Shown in pieces: positions 5,587 to 45,744 of a stretch of 45,744 bases of DNA. Under the pieces are notes generated by a model. It was not told the DNA's origin. It ran no database searches and saw only the letters and a list, made by a program, of their open reading frames with translations. A program made the translations under genes and the position numbers. The DNA lies in the NCBI RefSeq assembly GCF_014696385.1, contig NZ_JACJQB010000027.1, forward strand, positions 1 to 45,744. The letters run 5' to 3'. The stretch comes from Pseudanabaena mucicola FACHB-723 (GTDB lineage: Bacteria; Cyanobacteriota; Cyanobacteriia; Pseudanabaenales; Pseudanabaenaceae). The number at the start of each line of letters is the position of its first letter. Within the stretch, counting starts at the first letter, position 1.

Positions 5587-6507
5587 TTAGCTGAAAATTT
5601 CACCCAACGCCCGATCAATATTGGGATATTTGAACGAGAACTTATTGATTTCGGCTTTGTGCGGTAATACCTTCTGACCATCCAGCAATACCGATGCGCC
5701 TTCCCCAAACACTAAAATTAGGGCGGCGGCGGGGACTGGTAAGAAAGCAGGTCGTTTAATCGCTTTGGCAAAAGCAACGGTAAACTCCTCATTAGTAACA
5801 GGTTGAGGAGCAGTGCCATTGAGCGCACCTGTAACTTGATCATTGTTGAGTGCATAAATAATTAGCTCCACCCAATCATCACGGTGAATCCAAGAAAACC
5901 ACTGTTTCCCTGAGCCAATTTTGCCGCCACCACCAACTTGGAAAATCGGTAGCATTTTTGCGATCGCACCGCCCATTCCCAAGACAATACCTGTGCGGAG
6001 TTTAACTAGACGTACTCCCAAATTAGTGACAGGATCGGCTGCTGCTTCCCAATCACGACAGATATCGGCTAAAAAGTCATTACCGCGATCGCTATATTCA
6101 TCAAAGGATTTATCTAAACTTGTCCCGTAATAGCCAATCGCCGAGCCACTGATTAATACCTTGGGCTTTACCTCAGCATTACTGATCGCCTCCACTAAGA
6201 TCTTGGTAGTCAAAACGCGGCTATCACGAATTTCCTGCTTGCGTTTATCTGTCCAGCGCACACCTGCAATTGGTTCACCAGCAAGATTAATCACTGCATC
6301 ACTGCCAGAGATCTCCTGAGTCCAATCACCTAAGGCAAAGGGCTTGTAGCCAACAATTTTGACATTAGGAAATGCCTCTGATGGAAACTGACGACTAGCT
6401 TTTTCGACATTACGGCATAGCACAACAATATGATCTCCTAAAGCCTGTAAGCGCTCAACTAGCTTTACGCCAACAAATCCCGTAGCACCCGTAATGACAA
6501 TTTTCAT
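5587..6507 (-). CDS. TIGR01777-family NAD(P)-binding epimerase-like protein
   Basis: This 306-residue short-chain dehydrogenase/epimerase-like protein has the N-terminal nucleotide-binding motif GATGFVG (residues 7-13). The segments NLAGEPIAG and RWTDKRKQEI near residues 74-92 are typical of the TIGR01777 (SDR39U1-like) family, and a DUF1731-type C-terminal end follows. Related proteins occur across bacteria and plastids; the substrate is not established. The gene is divergent from lpxA. A MITE-like element and a 12-bp tandem duplication (AATCTAATTTGT at 6508-6531) lie in its upstream region. Confidence 0.88.
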   Translation of the reverse strand: MKIVITGATGFVGVKLVERLQALGDHIVVLCRNVEKASRQFPSEAFPNVKIVGYKPFALGDWTQEISGSDAVINLAGEPIAGVRWTDKRKQEIRDSRVLTTKILVEAISNAEVKPKVLISGSAIGYYGTSLDKSFDEYSDRGNDFLADICRDWEAAADPVTNLGVRLVKLRTGIVLGMGGAIAKMLPIFQVGGGGKIGSGKQWFSWIHRDDWVELIIYALNNDQVTGALNGTAPQPVTNEEFTVAFAKAIKRPAFLPVPAAALILVFGEGASVLLDGQKVLPHKAEINKFSFKYPNIDRALGEIFS

Positions 6508-6555
6508 AATCTAATTTGTAATCTAATTTGTAATCTGGTTGAGATGATTTGCTTA

Positions 6556-6653
6556 AGTAGCTAGCTAATTAAAACCCAGAGCTAGAACCTGTGGCGCATG
6601 CGCAGCGTGCGCCACAGGTTCTAAGGCTTTATATTTAATTATGCTTAGTTACT
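6556..6653. mobile_element. 98-bp MITE-like element flanked by TA
   Basis: The element starts AGTAGCTAGC at 6556 and ends GCTTAGTTACT at 6653, with a TA dinucleotide on both sides (6554-6555 and 6654-6655). It encloses a perfect 16-bp hairpin (6583-6598 and 6608-6623). Its right end, read inwards, matches 17 of the first 20 bases of the IS630-family end at 45294. TA target duplication is a hallmark of the IS630/Tc1-mariner group, so this is probably a non-autonomous relative of that IS. It lies between two divergent genes and so could affect both promoters. Confidence 0.65.
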
Positions 6654-6758
6654 TAATATCCATAGTCATCCTAAATCACTTGGTTGGGAATTTTTTGATG
6701 TAGACTGTTCCTTACTTTGCTATTGCTGTAGACCGTAGCCTCACATTTCCCCATTTTC

Positions 6759-7589
6759 ATGCCCAATACTAATATTACGATTCATCCTCGCGCTATCGTT
6801 CATCCCAACGCCAAAATTGGTGAAGGTACATCTATTGGTGCTGATGCCATTGTTGATGAATTTGTGGAAATTGGCGATCGCTGCGAAATTAGGGCAAGGG
6901 CGATCGTTACGGGGCATACCAAGCTTGGTAATGACAATCAAGTTGGCTATGGTGCAATTATTGGTTCTGAGCCGCAGGACACTTCCTATAAGGGGGCAGT
7001 GACCTTTGTAGAAATTGGCGATCGCAATATTTTTCGTGAATATGCCACCGTCAACCGTGGCACGAAGGAAGGCTCGGTTACCAAAATCGGTAATGACAAT
7101 TTGCTATTTACTGGCGCACATGTCGCCCATAACTGCAAAATTGGCAATCGGGTCATTTTAGTCAACAACGTTTTGCTAGCGGGCTATGTCGAGGTAAATG
7201 ATTACGCCTTTATGGGGGGCGACTCCGTGGTACATCAGTTTACGCGGATTGGCTCCTATGCAATGGTACGCGGACAAACTCGCCTTGGTATGGATGTCCC
7301 ACCCTACTGCATGGCAGTAGACACAAATATGGTGCTGGGCTTAAATCGCCTTGGGTTACGTCGTAATGGTTTTAGCCATGAGCGCCGTCGTCAAATTTTG
7401 GCAGCCTATGATGTTATTTATCGGTCAGGACGCAATCGTTCTCAAGCTTTGCAATTCTTGGAGTCCTCTGCCGAGTTTGCAGAAAATCCCGATATTCAAC
7501 TCTTTTGCAATTTTATTAAAGCTAGCTCACGCGGCATTTGTAAGCTCTATGAACGCGGCGCTAGTCGCATTGAAGAAGATCGTGAATAA
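6759..7589 (+). CDS. lpxA: Acyl-ACP--UDP-N-acetylglucosamine O-acyltransferase LpxA
   Basis: LpxA catalyses the first step of lipid A synthesis, moving a 3-hydroxyacyl chain from ACP to UDP-N-acetylglucosamine. The 276-residue protein shows the isoleucine-rich hexapeptide pattern of a left-handed beta-helix from residue 7 to about 190 and the active-site segment GAHVAHNCKIG, with His124 as the expected catalytic base. An alpha-helical C-terminus follows, as usual. In many cyanobacteria lpxA sits with lpxC and fabZ; here it is alone, while lpxD lies about 17 kb away. A bidirectional terminator follows directly. Confidence 0.95.
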   Translation: MPNTNITIHPRAIVHPNAKIGEGTSIGADAIVDEFVEIGDRCEIRARAIVTGHTKLGNDNQVGYGAIIGSEPQDTSYKGAVTFVEIGDRNIFREYATVNRGTKEGSVTKIGNDNLLFTGAHVAHNCKIGNRVILVNNVLLAGYVEVNDYAFMGGDSVVHQFTRIGSYAMVRGQTRLGMDVPPYCMAVDTNMVLGLNRLGLRRNGFSHERRRQILAAYDVIYRSGRNRSQALQFLESSAEFAENPDIQLFCNFIKASSRGICKLYERGASRIEEDRE

Positions 7590-31907: not shown

Positions 31908-32060
31908 TTAGTTGCAATCTCTGGGACTGTAAATGTTGATGCCAAAGCGATCAATATGTTCTTTGAGTTTTGGCTCAGTGATCGCTTCATAATGCACTAC
32001 ATCAAAAAAATAAGGGAGTGGTTTCTCTTCGTTTAGACAATCTGCAAATCGCCCCTTCAT
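31908..32060 (-). pseudogene. Relic of an MNT-type nucleotidyltransferase
   Basis: A minus-strand frame of 50 codons encodes RFADCLNEEKPLPYFFDVVH, then YEAITEPKLKEHIDRFGINIYS. This matches the C-terminal third of small nucleotidyltransferases of the MNT/HEPN toxin-antitoxin group. The catalytic GSRARG-type N-terminus is missing; the frame instead runs back into the HIP1 repeat block at about 32050. It ends two bases after the Uma2 stop. The truncated form is unlikely to be functional. Confidence 0.65.
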
Positions 32061-32140
32061 CACCCATCAAACCCGATCGCATATTTCCCCATCAAACAGC
32101 GATTGCCCTTTTCTCCACCTCAAACAGCGATTATATTGAC
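32061..32140. repeat. HIP1 repeat block 1
   Basis: Degenerate copies of the array repeat: ACCCATCAAACCCGATCGC, then CCATCAAACAGCGATTGCC, then CCTCAAACAGCGATTA. It lies between the nucleotidyltransferase relic and the RelE-type module. Confidence 0.7.
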
Positions 32141-32186
32141 GACCAAGTTAAAATTGTTTAAAACCAAGTAGTAGATCCTTAGTGTT

Positions 32187-32396
32187 ATGCAAATAAAAGA
32201 ACCCACTACTGAACAGTTTCGTTTACTAGTTCGTGAAGTTGTAATTGAAGTATTAGAAGAATATATCGATCTAGATGAAGGCAAGAAGTTAAAAACAGCA
32301 GTTGTGGAACGTTTATTACGACAGCAACAGCAACCAACTGTTATCCCTGCGGCTCAAGCTATGCAATCATTGGGGCTTAATTGGGACGAGTTATAG
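32187..32396 (+). CDS. Antitoxin-like partner of a RelE-type toxin
   Basis: The 69-residue acidic, helical protein (REVVIEVLEEYIDLDEGKK, ending QSLGLNWDEL) resembles the short antitoxins that precede RelE/ParE genes in cyanobacteria. It would bind and neutralise the toxin encoded by the overlapping frame. The last codons (GAC GAG TTA TAG) overlap the point where the toxin frame is expected to start. The family assignment rests on context and general features. Confidence 0.7.
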   Translation: MQIKEPTTEQFRLLVREVVIEVLEEYIDLDEGKKLKTAVVERLLRQQQQPTVIPAAQAMQSLGLNWDEL

Positions 32397-32646
32397 TATT
32401 GATTTTACTTCTGAGGCGATCGCTGATCTTGCGAAAATTGATCGCACTAATCAAATACGGATAGCTCGTAAAATCAAGTGGTTAGGAGAGAATTCTGAAC
32501 AAATTACACCTCTATCTCTTTCTGGTAATTTATCAAGTTTTTTTAAGCTGCGTGTTGGAGATTATCGAGTTATCTATGCGATCGCCCAATTACAAAAAGG
32601 TCTCATTATTCGTCAAATTGGATATCGCAGGGAAATTTACGATTAG
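32386..32646 (+). CDS. RelE/ParE-family toxin without an ATG start
   Basis: The frame encodes SYSIDFTSEAIADLAKID and ends KLRVGDYRVIYAIAQ...IIRQIGYRREIYD, the typical RelE/ParE mRNA-interferase fold (about 86 residues). The codon where ATG is expected, overlapping the antitoxin end, is ACG (32386-32388). No ATG exists upstream; a TTG at 32302 would add 28 residues that do not fit the family. Translation may start at ACG at low level or not at all. Catalytic residues of the C-terminal strand look preserved. Confidence 0.65.
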   Translation, partial: TSYSIDFTSEAIADLAKIDRTNQIRIARKIKWLGENSEQITPLSLSGNLSSFFKLRVGDYRVIYAIAQLQKGLIIRQIGYRREIYD

Positions 32647-32649
32647 ATA

Positions 32650-32750
32650 AATGATCGCCTCCCACATCAAACAACGATCGCCCAACGATCGCCTCTCACC
32701 ACCTAAAACCCGATTGCCTTTTCCCTACACCAAACAGCGATCACCTCACA
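32650..32750. repeat. HIP1 repeat block 2
   Basis: Degenerate array repeats: CCACATCAAACAACGATCGC, CTCTCACCACCTAAAACCCG, and ACACCAAACAGCGATCACC. It separates the RelE-type module from the DUF6883/DUF4926 module. Confidence 0.75.
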
Positions 32751-32827
32751 GTTGGGTATACTTAAGATTAATTTAGTATTGACTTCTGCCTAGGAAATTA
32801 CCAAATGGCGATCGCCCTGAAATTTCT

Positions 32828-33130
32828 ATGCAAAAGATTTTAGGATATTGCTTAAACATCAACCATGATAAGGGTAAAGACAAGGCAAGAGTGTTTGAAT
32901 CCAGACTGGGTATTACAGTTCAAAATGCTGATCGCTTGGTTGAATTAATTCAAGTTGCGGCAGTTGAAGGTGAAGTTGTGCAGGAGAGTAATACAAGATT
33001 TGGTAAGGAATATAAGGTGGACTGGGAAATTCCTAATACAGGAGGTTCTGAACTGAGGACTATTTGGGAAGTTAGTATAGAGTCTGGTTATCCTCGTTTG
33101 ATTAGTGCTTTTTTAAAGAGAGAGAAATAA
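32828..33130 (+). CDS. DUF6883 protein, probably with a lost upstream start
   Basis: The 100-residue frame matches DUF6883 proteins (GKDKARVFESRLGI, then FGKEYKVDWEI and RTIWEV). The frame is open 5' of the ATG back to 32783 and there encodes KLPNGDRPEIS, which looks like the family N-terminus. At the expected start codon the sequence is AGG (32792-32794). Either the shorter ATG form is made or a CTG at 32786 is used. The next gene overlaps the stop by one base, so the pair is coupled. DUF6883/DUF4926 pairs have been considered possible toxin-antitoxin modules; function is unknown. Confidence 0.7.
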   Translation: MQKILGYCLNINHDKGKDKARVFESRLGITVQNADRLVELIQVAAVEGEVVQESNTRFGKEYKVDWEIPNTGGSELRTIWEVSIESGYPRLISAFLKREK

Positions 33131-33390
33131 TGAAAACTCCGCAGTTGCTTGATACGATCGCTATTTTAAAACCAATTTCTATAGATAGACTTTCTCTGAT
33201 GGAAGCAGAATATGATTTTAATTCAGCTTTGCCAGTGGGTTTAGTTGGTACGATTGTGGATATTCATCAGGATAATCAGGGAGTTGATTATCTGGTGGAG
33301 TTTGCGGATTCTGATGGGTGTGAGTTTGCGATCGCCTATTTAAAGGCTAATGAATTTCTTACTTTACAATATGAGCTTGCTGCGGCTTAG
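33130..33390 (+). CDS. DUF4926 protein
   Basis: The 86-residue protein ends with a small beta-barrel-like domain (LPVGLVGTIVDIHQ, then DYLVEFADSDG) typical of DUF4926. Its N-terminus (LLDTIAILKPI) also fits. It overlaps the DUF6883 stop by one base (TAATG-type junction), so both are made from one message. Such small domains commonly neighbour DUF6883 genes. An antitoxin or partner role is inference. Confidence 0.7.
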   Translation: MKTPQLLDTIAILKPISIDRLSLMEAEYDFNSALPVGLVGTIVDIHQDNQGVDYLVEFADSDGCEFAIAYLKANEFLTLQYELAAA

Positions 33391-33399
33391 GATTTTAGA

Positions 33400-33465
33400 G
33401 CGATCGCACTCTCACAACCACAAACCCGATCGCCTTTTCCCCACACCAAACAGCGATCGACTAAA
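33400..33465. repeat. HIP1 repeat block 3
   Basis: One unit: GCGATCGCACTCTCACAACC, then ACAAACCCGATCGCC and CCACACCAAACAGCGATCG. It separates the DUF6883/DUF4926 module from HicBA. Confidence 0.75.
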
Positions 33466-33534
33466 TCAACAAAAATCAATTATGATCGAGTAGATGAAAT
33501 ATAGAGATTGATATCTTAAAAAATTCAAGAATAT

Positions 33535-33771
33535 ATGAAAACCAGCAAAAAAGCCTACAACTATACGGTGCTTCTAGAAAAGGAAGAAGATGGAGGCTAT
33601 CACGCTTTTTGTCCTATTCTCAGAGGCTGTCATTCTCAGGGGGATACTTTTGAAGAGGCGATCGCTAATATTACGGAAGCTATTGAGCTATATATTGAAA
33701 GTTTAATAGCTGATAGTCAGCCTGTCCCTAGAGAAAATTTAATTGTCAAACCTTTGAGTGTTCTAGTATGA
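33535..33771 (+). CDS. hicB: HicB-family antitoxin
   Basis: The 78-residue protein has the HicB partial-RNase-H-fold pattern: YTVLLEKEEDGGYHAFCPIL, then GCHSQGDTFEEAIANITEAI. It neutralises HicA by direct binding. It lacks a C-terminal DNA-binding domain, as in the short cyanobacterial HicB type. Its stop overlaps the hicA ATG by four bases. The order hicB-hicA is the reverse of the classical order but common in cyanobacteria. Confidence 0.88.
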   Translation: MKTSKKAYNYTVLLEKEEDGGYHAFCPILRGCHSQGDTFEEAIANITEAIELYIESLIADSQPVPRENLIVKPLSVLV

Positions 33772-33998
33772 GCAACTTTCCAAGCGTTAAGGCTAAGGAG
33801 TTTATAAGGGTTATCGAAAAGTTGGGGTTTTATTTCGATCGCCAAAAAGGAAGTCATGCTATTTACAAAAATATTCAGGGAAAAAGAGTTGTTGTTCCAA
33901 TTCATTCTGGAAAAGATATTAAACAAGGTACTTTGATGGGAATGATTCAAGATATTGATGTTGACAAAGAGACTTTTTTTAAATTATTGCAAGAATAA
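33768..33998 (+). CDS. hicA: HicA-family mRNA interferase toxin
   Basis: The 76-residue protein has the double-stranded RNA-binding-like HicA fold, with KEFIRVIEKLGFYFDRQKGSH: the catalytic His is in GSH near residue 37. The end is VPIHSGKDIKQGTL...MIQDIDV, also typical. It cleaves mRNA when free of HicB. The ATG overlaps the hicB stop. The six-unit HIP1 repeat begins two bases after its stop codon. Confidence 0.9.
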   Translation: MSNFPSVKAKEFIRVIEKLGFYFDRQKGSHAIYKNIQGKRVVVPIHSGKDIKQGTLMGMIQDIDVDKETFFKLLQE

Positions 33999-33999
33999 A

Positions 34000-34333
34000 G
34001 CGATCGCCCCTCATCACCCACAAAGCCCGATCGCACATTCCTCCAAATCAAACATTGATCGCGCCCTTCATCACCCACAAAACCCGATCGCCTAAATCTC
34101 AACATCAAACAACGATCGCCCCTCATCACAAACAAAACCCGATCGCCTAAATCTCCACATCAAACAGCGATCGCCTCTCACCACCCATAACCCGATCGCC
34201 TATTCCCTCAAATCAAACAGCGATCGCAACCCTCAACACCTACAAACCCGATCGCAAATCCCCTCAAATCAAACTGCGATCGCAACCCTCAACACCTACA
34301 AACTCGATCGCAAATTCCCTCAAATCAAACTGC
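34000..34333. repeat. Six-unit tandem HIP1 repeat, about 55 bp per unit
   Basis: Unit starts (GCGATCGC or a one- or two-base variant) fall at 34000, about 34056, 34112, 34167, 34220, 34276 and a partial at 34332, a period of 53-56 bp. Each unit is HIP1, then CCTCATCACCCACAAAACC-like, then CGATCGC, then TAAATCTCCACATCAAACA-like. The array fills nearly the whole space between the hicA stop and the convergent VapC stop. Minus-strand frames through it are repeat artefacts, not genes. Confidence 0.9.
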
Positions 34334-34338
34334 GAAAA

Positions 34339-34749
34339 TCATTTTAATAATGCTCGAAATCCTGCTTGATTAAAATGGTCGTCAGCAGTTAAGGCTTCAG
34401 TAATTGAAAGACTTTGCATAACTACGAATGAAATACAATCCACTAGTCCCCATTCTTTGTCTTGGCGGCTTCTAAATAATTGAAATGCTGCATCATATAG
34501 TTCATTTGTTAGAGGAACTATTTTAACGTTTGGATCTGATTCTAGTGATTCAAGAAGTTCGATTGCGGCGGCTCTATATTTTTGTTTGGAAAGTGCATTT
34601 CCAATTTCCAGTAAAATTGCTTGAGTGGTTACTAGGCTTATATTTTGAGATTCAATCTTTTCAGCTAGTTCTACTGCTTTTGCATGGTTTTGATCGGTAA
34701 TTGCAGATAGTGCGATCGCAAAGGATGTATCTAAAAAAATTTCACGCAT
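34339..34749 (-). CDS. PIN-domain toxin (VapC-like)
   Basis: A 136-residue PIN-domain ribonuclease (start MREIFLDTSF). The first acidic residue is Asp in FLDTSFAIAL; the second is Glu in AILLEIGNALS; the third and fourth lie in WGLVDCISF and ALTADDHF. All four metal-binding positions appear present. It overlaps the upstream antitoxin gene by 8 bp. It is the only array module on the minus strand. Confidence 0.88.
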   Translation of the reverse strand: MREIFLDTSFAIALSAITDQNHAKAVELAEKIESQNISLVTTQAILLEIGNALSKQKYRAAAIELLESLESDPNVKIVPLTNELYDAAFQLFRSRQDKEWGLVDCISFVVMQSLSITEALTADDHFNQAGFRALLK

Positions 34750-34978
34750 TATCTGAGATATTTTCACCATAAAGGTATTGATCGATGTTTTCTGACCAGT
34801 CGGGTTGACCTTGCAGGTTTAAAGATTTAGCAGTTTGTAAGAATGATTTTTTGGGTGGTTTTGCATCAGGCAAAAGACTTTCAACAACAATCCGTACTCT
34901 TGTGCCTGATTTGATGTTTAGAGGCACTTCAGGGACAAGGGTTACACCATCATAAAGAGCGTCTAAGGTTTGAATCAT
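34742..34978 (-). CDS. Antitoxin of the PIN-domain toxin
   Basis: From MIQTLDALYDG the protein has 78 residues. The N-terminus (ALYDGVTLVPEVPLNIKSGTRVRIVVE) matches the AF2212/DUF104-type antitoxin beta-domain, with a variable tail that would bind the toxin. Upstream in-frame starts run into repeat DNA and are rejected. The stop overlaps the toxin start. Confidence 0.82.
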   Translation of the reverse strand: MIQTLDALYDGVTLVPEVPLNIKSGTRVRIVVESLLPDAKPPKKSFLQTAKSLNLQGQPDWSENIDQYLYGENISDNA

Positions 34979-35024
34979 AATTTTTTGCTTATGCTGCTTT
35001 GCTGACATTATATCTTTATTTACA

Positions 35025-35140
35025 GAGCGATCGCCCCTCATCACCCGCAAACCCGATCGCCTAAATCTCAACATCAAAACAGCGATCGCACCTCATAACA
35101 CCCAAAACTTGATCGCCTAAACTCCACATCAAACAGCTAT
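35025..35140. repeat. HIP1 repeat block 5
   Basis: Two units: GCGATCGCCCCTCATCACCC, AACCCGATCGCCTAAATCTC, AACATCAAAACAGCGATCGC, CCTCATAACACCCAAAACTT, GATCGCCTAAACTCC and ACATCAAACAGC. It lies between the minus-strand antitoxin start and BrnT, in the same orientation as the other blocks. Confidence 0.8.
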
Positions 35141-35246
35141 GTCACATCAAAAAACTAAAAGTGGTTGTAAAAGTTTAAATGTCTTAAAATAGCTATGAAT
35201 TGTTGATTAAAATGCTTATGGTTTATAGTGTTTATGGTGTGTTGAG

Positions 35247-35525
35247 ATGAGTACCACTTTCGAGTGGGATGAGCAAAAAGAGGCTGATAACAAGGCAAAG
35301 CATGGCTTAGATTTTGAAACTGCTCAATATGCTTTTTTCGATCCCAAGCGTTTGATTGTCCATGACTCAGAACATAGTGAAGTTGAGGAACGTTGGTTTT
35401 GTATTGGCAAAGTAGATGATCTTGTATTGACAGTGCGTTTTACTTATCGAGATGGAGTGATTCGGATATTTGGGGCTGCTCAATGGCGTAAATGGAGAAA
35501 ATTTTATGAACAACACAATTCCTGA
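35247..35525 (+). CDS. brnT: BrnT-family toxin
   Basis: The 92-residue protein has the BrnT start FEWDEQKEADNKAKHGLDFE, then DPKRLIVHDSEHSEVEERWFCIG. BrnT is a RelE-like ribonuclease. The C-terminal part (RIFGAAQWRKWRKFYEQ) differs from the classical ISARRA-type end and fits a variant found in cyanobacteria as far as I recall. It overlaps brnA by 20 bp. Confidence 0.87.
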   Translation: MSTTFEWDEQKEADNKAKHGLDFETAQYAFFDPKRLIVHDSEHSEVEERWFCIGKVDDLVLTVRFTYRDGVIRIFGAAQWRKWRKFYEQHNS

Positions 35526-35739
35526 TCCTGCTGAACCAATTGGAAATGTCACTATTGTTAAAGATTTTTTGCCCCCAGTGAATCAGTTAGTTCCGAGGCA
35601 AAAGACGGTAATGATTACGATGGAATTTACTCAAGAAAGTATTGAGTTTTTTAAGCGTGAGGCTAAACGCCATAATTCTTCATATCAAGAGATGATTTGC
35701 CAACTTGTGGATGCTTATGCAAAACAGGGTAAGGTGTGA
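35506..35739 (+). CDS. brnA: BrnA-family antitoxin
   Basis: The protein (77 residues from MNNTIPD) carries a ribbon-helix-helix-like C-terminus (KTVMITMEFTQESIEFFKRE, then YQEMICQLVDAYA). That fits BrnA antitoxins, which bind BrnT and the operator. The ATG at 35506 lies inside the end of brnT, so translation is coupled. An upstream in-frame start at 35470 would only add an unlikely N-terminus. Confidence 0.82.
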   Translation: MNNTIPDPAEPIGNVTIVKDFLPPVNQLVPRQKTVMITMEFTQESIEFFKREAKRHNSSYQEMICQLVDAYAKQGKV

Positions 35740-35749
35740 ATAATTTATC

Positions 35750-35850
35750 GCCCTTCACCACTCAGAAACCCGATCGCAAATTCCCCACATCAAACAGCGA
35801 TCGCACCCTCATCACCCAAAACCCGATCGCAAAAATCCTCAAATCAATCA
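35750..35850. repeat. HIP1 repeat block 6
   Basis: Units CGCCCTTCACCACTCAGAAA, CCCGATCGCAAATTCCCC, ACATCAAACAGCGATCGC, ACCCTCATCACCCAAAACCC and GATCGCAAAAATCC. This is the last block; none is seen after rnc begins at 35880. Confidence 0.8.
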
Positions 35851-39393: not shown

Positions 39394-39700
39394 GACTTTG
39401 TTGGGGTAGAGGCTTGTATATTTCTATTATAGTTATTTTTACCAAAATTACAAATATATTTTTAGTAATATATTGAGTATATTGCTAAAGTCAGCAACGC
39501 TTTTTAGTGATTTAGTGATAGCAATCTATACTTTGTAGCAATAAATATCAACATGTAAAATTATCATTTATAGTGAATTGCATAATATAGTGATAAACCA
39601 TAAAACCCAAGAATTTAGTTGCGGCACGAAGCGCCGCAACTAAATTCTTGGGTTTTGCTTATCTCTCAAGCCTAAAAATGACGTAGCTACTTTTAAGAGA
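39394..39700. other. 307-bp intergenic region
   Basis: No gene. It contains the family-A palindrome at 39602-39656 and, near 39687, TAGCTACTTTTA, which is the complement of an AAGTAGCTA-type end. The pncB promoter should lie here. Confidence 0.5.
39602..39656. repeat. 55-bp palindromic element (family A)
   Basis: Arms of 24 nt (39602-39625 and 39633-39656) pair perfectly around a C-GAA-G type core, with one A-C mismatch inside. Outer AAAACCC/GGGTTTT and core GTTGCGGC...GCCGCAAC are the same as at 912-964, but the middle (AGAATTTA) differs and is compensated on the other arm. It lies about 45 bp beyond the kinase stop. Confidence 0.85.
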
Positions 39701-44955: not shown

Positions 44956-45294
44956 ATGCAGCTTTCATTTAATCACAAGCAAAAGCTCACACGACCTGTT
45001 TCGTTTTTACTGAACTACCACAACTCCAATAACGCTAAAGTTAGTAGTGGTTTTGTACCTTTTCAGATTGAAAACACCATAGAAGATAATGGTGATGGTG
45101 AGTTTGTACACACTTTGACTTTTTCAGTTCTAGTAGACATAATCAGTATTGTGAAAGAACCAAAAAAGATTCAAATCAGGAGTCTTGATGGTAAGAGGAC
45201 AATTGAAGCTACAGCACCTAAAAAAGTGTCTGATGTAGGTTGCAAATTGATCGGACAATATAAGATTGTTGTAGACAAGACTGATAACACATAA
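44956..45294 (+). CDS. Unknown protein, probably cut short by an IS
   Basis: The 112-residue protein is probably beta-rich and soluble (for example FVHTLTFSVLVDIISIV). I do not recognise it. It follows the LRAT-like gene by 76 bp. Its stop codon TAA (45292-45294) is formed by TA plus the first A of the IS630-family end, so the original reading frame may have continued past this point before the insertion. Confidence 0.55.
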   Translation: MQLSFNHKQKLTRPVSFLLNYHNSNNAKVSSGFVPFQIENTIEDNGDGEFVHTLTFSVLVDIISIVKEPKKIQIRSLDGKRTIEATAPKKVSDVGCKLIGQYKIVVDKTDNT

Positions 45295-45744
45295 GTAGCT
45301 AAGCAAAATTAATTACATAAGTTGAACCAAAGTCTCGAAGAACTTTTTCAACATAAGAGACTAAACTTTCCCAAGATTCATATGCATTGAGTTCAATCCA
45401 CTCATACTTCATGAAACGCCACAAAATTTCAATCAAGTTCAACTGGGGACTATAAGGGGGTAACTGGAAAATCTCAACTTGCTGGTTCTTCCACTGCTCT
45501 AATTTCTCTTGAATCAGTTGACTGGTATGAATAGAGGCTTTATCCATAACAATCACTGTTGGCTTGGTAGATTGACGAGCAAAGTCATCGATACAAGCGA
45601 GAATGACTGCACTGGTGATACTGCGTTCAAAAACATAAGCAGATAAGTCATTGTTTCGATTCATCAAACCCACGACATTTAACCTCTTACTGCGTTGACT
45701 GGGTAAGCTTAAACCCGTCCCTTTCTCTTGCCAAGCATAGGGAA
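45294..45744 (-). mobile_element. IS630-family insertion sequence (left end in window)
   Basis: The outer end reads AGTAGCTAAGCAAAATTAAT from 45294, preceded by TA (45292-45293). IS630 elements insert at TA and duplicate it. The element runs beyond the right edge of the window, so only the end next to the transposase stop is seen. Confidence 0.75.
45299..45744 (-). CDS. IS630-family transposase (N-terminus beyond the window)
   Basis: The visible part is the DDE-type catalytic half: PYAWQEKGTGL near the edge, VIVMDKASIHTS (second catalytic Asp) and LPPYSPQLNLIEILWRFMKYEW (final Glu). These are hallmark IS630/Tc1-mariner motifs. The catalytic segment looks intact, so the element may be active. 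The stop codon TAG lies inside the terminal repeat, as is usual for compact IS. Confidence 0.9.
   Translation of the reverse strand, partial: PYAWQEKGTGLSLPSQRSKRLNVVGLMNRNNDLSAYVFERSITSAVILACIDDFARQSTKPTVIVMDKASIHTSQLIQEKLEQWKNQQVEIFQLPPYSPQLNLIEILWRFMKYEWIELNAYESWESLVSYVEKVLRDFGSTYVINFA

Follow-up and report, generated by a model that had tools for sequence, protein, structure and literature searches.

A genus-wide MITE family in Pseudanabaena, its relation to IS630-family elements and the evolution of its hairpin

The MITE copy beside the lpxA-like gene

The window analysed here is a stretch of 45,744 nucleotides of the Pseudanabaena mucicola FACHB-723 genome, where it forms contig C20 of an assembly (G000) of 3.96 Mb in 94 contigs. 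It carries a MITE between an epimerase/DUF1731 protein gene and an LpxA-like hexapeptide protein gene, and the right part of an IS630-family IS lies at its end. The features considered are as follows.

5587-6507, minus strand: epimerase/DUF1731 protein gene, left neighbour of the MITE
6554-6555, no strand: left TA target dinucleotide, from the sequence (TA duplication is taken from a sister MITE family, locus L008)
6556-6653, plus strand: MITE of 98 bp, A end left and B end right (family consensus 104 bp including both TA)
6556-6573, plus strand: A-end terminal inverted repeat (TIR); two consensus bases are absent in this copy and the end of the repeat is approximate
6583-6601, plus strand: left arm of the inner hairpin, 19 bp, with one mismatch against the right arm
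6602-6604, plus strand: hairpin loop GCA (TGC in other copies)
6605-6623, plus strand: right arm of the inner hairpin
6626-6653, minus strand: B end, 28 bp, identical in 25/28 positions to the IS-B end of genome G002 (L095) and in 21/28 to the window IS
6654-6655, no strand: right TA target dinucleotide, from the sequence
6759-7589, plus strand: LpxA-like hexapeptide protein gene, right neighbour of the MITE
45294-45744, minus strand: right part of an IS630-family IS (the window IS), cut by the contig end, with TA at 45292-45293
45299-45742, minus strand: C-terminal part of an IS630 transposase (PF13358 DDE_3, E 9.7e-25 on 45299-45673)

Reading of the window sequence confirmed the anatomy given by the first-pass annotation, namely a 98-bp element at 6556-6653 with inverted ends (AGTAGCTA on the left and AGTAACTA on the right, read inward) and TA on both sides, whose right end is identical to the IS end at 45294 in 17 of 20 bases. 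Relative to the family, the left end of this copy shows a small deletion, with GCTAGCTAATT in place of GCTAGGCATAATT. At 6556-6653 there is no overlap with any ORF of at least 80 aa. A degenerate 21-base end pattern, with up to three mismatches allowed, matched only the MITE right end and the IS end at 45294 in the window, against 0.00 matches expected from 100 shuffles; the pattern was derived from these same two ends and fits both by construction, and this result speaks for its rarity and not for the independence of the two matches. Folded as single-stranded DNA, the element reached -32.8 kcal/mol, compared with a shuffle mean of -12.9 (z -8.8), and none of 200 shuffles folded as well. The annotation had also placed the element between divergent promoters. 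The two neighbouring genes are divergent, but a sigma-70 consensus scan found no promoter at 6400-6860, and the promoter and terminator consensus scan around the window copy gave no site.

At the lpxA locus, 12 relatives were fetched (25 exist), and in 10 of them the epimerase gene and lpxA are separated by an ORF of 701-1070 aa; this ORF is absent here, in G023 and in G025. Judged by eye, it looks like a response regulator. Its best match in the own genome is 37% identical over part of the length, so an orthologue elsewhere in that genome is unlikely. Neither the spacer sequence nor the gene order at this locus is conserved in the relatives fetched. MITE pieces occur in the spacers flanking the response-regulator-like ORF in G018, G013 and G010, and another lies upstream of lpxA in G003 (L219). 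It is possible that the response-regulator-like gene was lost by recombination between flanking MITEs.

Copies, distribution and target site of the MITE family

A search of the own genome with a 102-bp query returned at least 74 rows, in which both strands are counted because the element is palindromic, and these were collapsed by eye to at least 40 distinct places (40 of 86 candidates scored). All 26 genus genomes gave matches, G001 just one, which was weak; of 32 other genomes, two matched. The exact hairpin core was present in 64 stretches of named records, among which the own genome is possibly absent: 57 are titled Pseudanabaena and seven bear other cyanobacterial titles. Viral contigs held no exact-core stretch. 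Identity among the own copies reaches 97.1% in the best pair, with a median of 82.9% (300 pairs, 25 copies).

The 69 loci yielded 46 elements, and 39 of them make up the alignment used below, which gives a family consensus of 104 bp with TA at both ends; L008, L013, L064, L068, L072, L154 and L159 were left out (second family, insertion, mis-called orientation or other hairpin). The elements measure 98-104 bp and have no ORF of 80 aa or more, and their TIRs form a helix of 22 pairs. Its numerous copies, TIRs and TA flanks, together with the lack of coding capacity, support the proposed identification of the element as a MITE. REP/REPIN palindromes carry a GTAG-type tag and are linked to a RAYT transposase; the TIR and TA anatomy of the element described here points elsewhere.

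The TA duplication is directly evident for a second, sister MITE family. At L008 a second-family MITE lies inside a first-family MITE, and its excision together with one TA leaves a sequence identical to the first-family consensus at 99 of 101 positions. For the first family the evidence is weaker. L069 compared with L302 gives an imprecise empty site (71% over 302 bases, with 41 gapped positions), and L067 compared with L256 gives a non-orthologous repeat copy with a single TA. The latter pair was rejected as an orthologous empty site, since the neighbouring genes differ and the two therefore share a repeat copy. The local empty-site search matched across the junction for 2 of 81 unique elements detected. 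The second family (L160-L179 and L008) resembles the first at its A end, TAAGTAGCTAAACATAATTAAAACC, and differs from it in the hairpin, and the single elements L171, L173 and L159 carry yet other hairpins within similar ends.

The gene context was determined for the 46 elements of the own genome, three of which have other hairpins (L286-L288). Two lie at contig ends and the 44 classed copies comprise 26 in tandem, 17 in divergent and one in convergent spacers, compared with 60.7%, 28.8% and 10.6%, respectively, for intergenic TA sites. A comparison of these counts alone weakly suggests a skew. None of the 44 classed copies is inside an ORF, some overlapping ORF ends by up to 51 bases, while 21,025 of 25,870 background TA sites (446 kb sampled) fall inside ORFs. 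Among 19 copies of relatives, eight are tandem, seven divergent and one convergent, one is inside an ORF (L068) and two are at ends.

Cyanobacterial MITEs, Nezha and others, are already known (cited in PMC10969869), and none of the titles listed from the open-access literature searched concerned a Pseudanabaena MITE. Nezha is likewise short and multicopy with inverted ends, a likeness at the level of general description. The MITEs of Anabaena sp. 90 are comparable in the same three respects; that report places 132 of 147 in intergenic regions and predicts secondary structures for them (PMC3542288). It assigns them no parent, since none of the IS of that genome shared their ends, whereas for the Pseudanabaena MITE a parent lineage is proposed here from other genomes.

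Relationship of the MITE to IS630-family elements

The IS at 45294 does belong to the IS630 family. A full copy in G011 (L083), 97% identical over the 147 aa of the C-terminal part compared, encodes 358 aa and matches the NCBIfam IS630 transposase model NF033545 with 227.8 bits (E 1.9e-67, cut-off 100). The other end of the IS was recovered and the terminal repeat is present at both ends, which makes the TIR real: the 24 left ends in the own genome all read TA followed by AGTAGCCATGCAGAATTATT, and the right ends read TA followed by AGTAGCTAAGCAAAATTAAT. The own genome contains at least 32 right-end rows, 29 of them full length (40 of 50 candidates scored), and all 32 were scored at 100% identity to the window copy. 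Nearly all of these rows are located at contig ends throughout the assembly, so that assembly was probably interrupted by this repeat; this would account for the end of the window at that point. In 5 of 26 genus genomes, close relatives of the element (at least 59% aa identity) were seen. Nested within the left end of the copy in G011 (L083, about 794-888) is a repeat of about 95 bp that contains two GC-rich hairpins; it occurs without the IS in G000 at C25:29056-29151, C27:12941-13035, C23:46852-46945 and C41:23588-23681.

The assignment of the MITE to the IS630 type held, and its ends match an IS630 element through the right ends of a different lineage, here called IS-B, met while the IS630 pieces of relatives were being checked. 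The IS-B end of G002 (L095), TAAGTAGCTAGGCATAATTAAATATAAAACG, matches the MITE B end past the TIR, and the B end of the MITE at L012 is identical to the IS-B end at L188 in 28 of 28 positions. The final codons of the transposase (..RFIFN[Y/C/S]A stop) lie within the right end of IS-B, and the MITE B end still resembles them. At the A end, the match to IS-B is confined to the TIR of about 21 bp.

For each MITE end, the G002 IS-B end, singled out because of its match, was scored against the better of the two window-IS ends. Over 28 bp, IS-B was better in 25/25 B ends and 23/25 A ends of the own copies (one tie, one worse), and in 14/14 A ends and 14/14 B ends of the relatives. Over 20 bp, it was better in 24/25 A ends (one tie) and 18/25 B ends (seven ties) of the own copies, and in 14/14 A ends and 12/14 B ends (one tie, one worse) of the relatives. 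Judged from these ends, IS-B appears to be the nearest autonomous relative of the MITE found, and fits it better than the window IS.

These scores bear directly on the link to the nearby autonomous IS drawn by the first-pass annotation, which proved to be valid at the family level only: both MITE ends agree with IS-B over more bases, and this agreement continues past the TIR of about 20 bp. Origin of the MITE by deletion from the IS at 45294, or its present mobilisation by that IS, would agree with the 17 of 20 end bases shared by the window copy, with the many nearly identical copies of this IS and with the TA flanks of both elements. However, in the window copy the match fades past the TIR (21/28, against 25/28 for IS-B), the IS at 45294 falls below IS-B in 25/25 own B ends, and it is not the element that ends and subterminal bases match best. 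The MITE copies are also far more diverged than the IS copies, so the recent burst of the IS has not visibly mobilised the MITE, and the MITE is present in 26/26 genus genomes, compared with 5/26 for the close IS relatives counted above. We consider such an origin or mobilisation very improbable. Since IS630 ends are alike across lineages, an end of about 20 bases in common with the nearest IS is insufficient to name the parent of a MITE; the subterminal bases decide.

The own genome also holds IS-C, an intact-looking two-ORF IS630 element on contig C75 (5989-7112; L210 990-2113) with the ends AGTAGCTAGGCATAAGAAA and AGTAGGTAGACCAAAGAAA. One of its ends begins AGTAGCTAGGCATAA, the same letters as the outermost 15 bp of the A-end consensus of the MITE, and so IS-C might move the MITE; over 20 bp it beats the window IS on 22/25 own A ends (one tie, two worse). 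Over 28 bp, however, it is worse than the window IS on 21/25 own B ends, and a subterminal match to the MITE was not seen, which leaves IS-C an improbable mover.

The IS-B lineage itself extends well beyond the genus and is common across the cyanobacteria. With the C-terminal 69 aa of the G002 IS-B as query, relatives were found in 65 of 291 genomes of the class (E at most 1e-8), many with a similar right end. The IS-B at L184 has 1,125 bp between its ends and two overlapping ORFs, the second ending in ERFIFNSA; they score 89 and 65.4 bits against NF033545, below the cut-off of 100, and the second is above the PF13358 cut-off. Within the genus, close IS-B relatives (at least 76%) among 25 genomes were, among the matches listed and leaving out the rows of G005 and G009, those of G002 (the query's own), G020 and G018 (37 aa only). 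The G002 IS-B consists of the C-terminal part only and the G020 copy has its first ORF broken across two frames; no intact IS-B was seen among the close genus relatives examined, in which copies are broken or partial. The proposed parentage consequently rests on the G002 and G020 remnants and on elements in other families, and the parent would have been lost from the genus.

We therefore favour, as likely, a genus-wide MITE family that is moved in trans by an IS630/Tc1-mariner transposase, with IS-B as its nearest relative, and whose hairpin is re-perfected by template switching. Such a transposase would recognise ends like AGTAGCTAGGCRYAATTAAATATAAAAC, mobilise the MITE in trans and insert it into TA with duplication of the TA. 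The IS-B lineage would be the nearest autonomous relative, its close genus relatives examined being broken or partial, and the IS at 45294 would be a second, recently amplified IS630 element with only the family-level TIR in common with the MITE. Template switching at replication, from one arm of the inner palindrome to the other, would be the main process that keeps it perfect or makes it so again.

IS630/Tc1-mariner insertion sequences such as ISY100 of Synechocystis are among the closest known systems. In ISY100, the TA target is duplicated, the TIRs are imperfect and 24 bp long, and mini-elements with only 30 bp of each end transpose (PMC2170065). ISY100 resembles the presumed mover in its DDE transposase relatives and TA duplication, and its 30-bp ends suffice, as those of the MITE would need to. 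The likeness is again at the level of general description, and the MITE differs in having no transposase.

Evolution of the hairpin

Alignment of the 39 copies showed that 94.6% of cells pair in the inner helix, where 11 of 20 pairs have two-sided changes (18 cells), and 85.1% in the TIR helix, where 4 of 22 pairs do (7 cells). The 25 two-sided cells of both helices were not equalled in any of 500 shuffles, and the pairs with two-sided changes likewise exceeded all 500; the shuffles ignore the kinship of copies, and related copies can exceed them without structure. Further pair types were not unusual in the same test (63 of 500 shuffles as high).

The loop was inverted in part of the copies. 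The core was found in 37 of 43 copies, of which 19 have GCA, ten its reverse complement TGC and eight another loop, the orientation of core-only copies being uncertain; L011, L018, L019, L023, L025 and L028 were left out, as a neighbouring hairpin was returned instead of the MITE core. In six of the same 37 copies (L016, L020, L274, L278, L280 and L282) the stem extends 3-7 bp past the consensus 20 bp, and in L016 and L280 the outer sequence of one arm, inspected by eye, complements the other arm where the family consensus differs.

Two reports describe such outcomes for template switching: multiple compensatory changes, stem extension and inverted loops (PMC8794818), and arm homogenisation and spacer inversion (PMC8604942). 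The MITE hairpin is similar in its compensatory changes, stem extension and loop inversion; the published cases concern rRNA genes and yeast coding DNA, whereas here many copies of one MITE are involved. We infer template switching between the hairpin arms from these patterns; two-sided changes would likewise result if the hairpin were under selection as RNA or DNA.

Such selection would be expected if the hairpin were conserved because the MITE acts in transcripts near genes, whether as terminator, as mRNA stabiliser or as regulator, a reading with which the two-sided changes in the stem and the persistence of core copies without recognisable full TIRs (L278, L280 and L281) agree. The evidence from the copies argues otherwise: the consensus scan gave no terminator-like or promoter-like site at the window copy, and the Rfam search of five loci (E at most 0.1) gave five matches, all far below the gathering scores, with no family near its cut-off. 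The copies in own tandem spacers are unbiased in orientation (14 same, 12 opposite), convergent spacers are rare (1/44, against 10.6% of intergenic TA), and neither loop inversion nor stem extension is predicted by a transcript role. We regard conservation as a transcript element as unlikely.

Returning to template switching, it is quite possible, and we propose it tentatively, that the MITE families of Pseudanabaena preserve, in many natural copies, a record of this process, in which one arm was copied from the other and hairpins were thereby repeatedly re-perfected, extended into their flanks and loop-inverted; the families with different hairpins within similar ends may be products of it. 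If true, bacterial palindromic repeats can acquire perfect hairpins and apparent covariation with no selection on structure. Two-sided changes in the hairpin of a MITE are thus not necessarily the mark of a functional RNA. The genus-wide set of copies is usable for measuring template switching in bacteria.

Other repeats in the window

The window contains repeats of other kinds. Long hairpins of the AAAACCC...GGGTTTT type, with GCGGCGC-like cores, are located at 912-964, at 39602-39656 and in the region of 24648. CGATCGC-rich (HIP1-like) repeats occupy 32050-35850, and some of them form an array whose units are 53-57 bp long (34007-34356).
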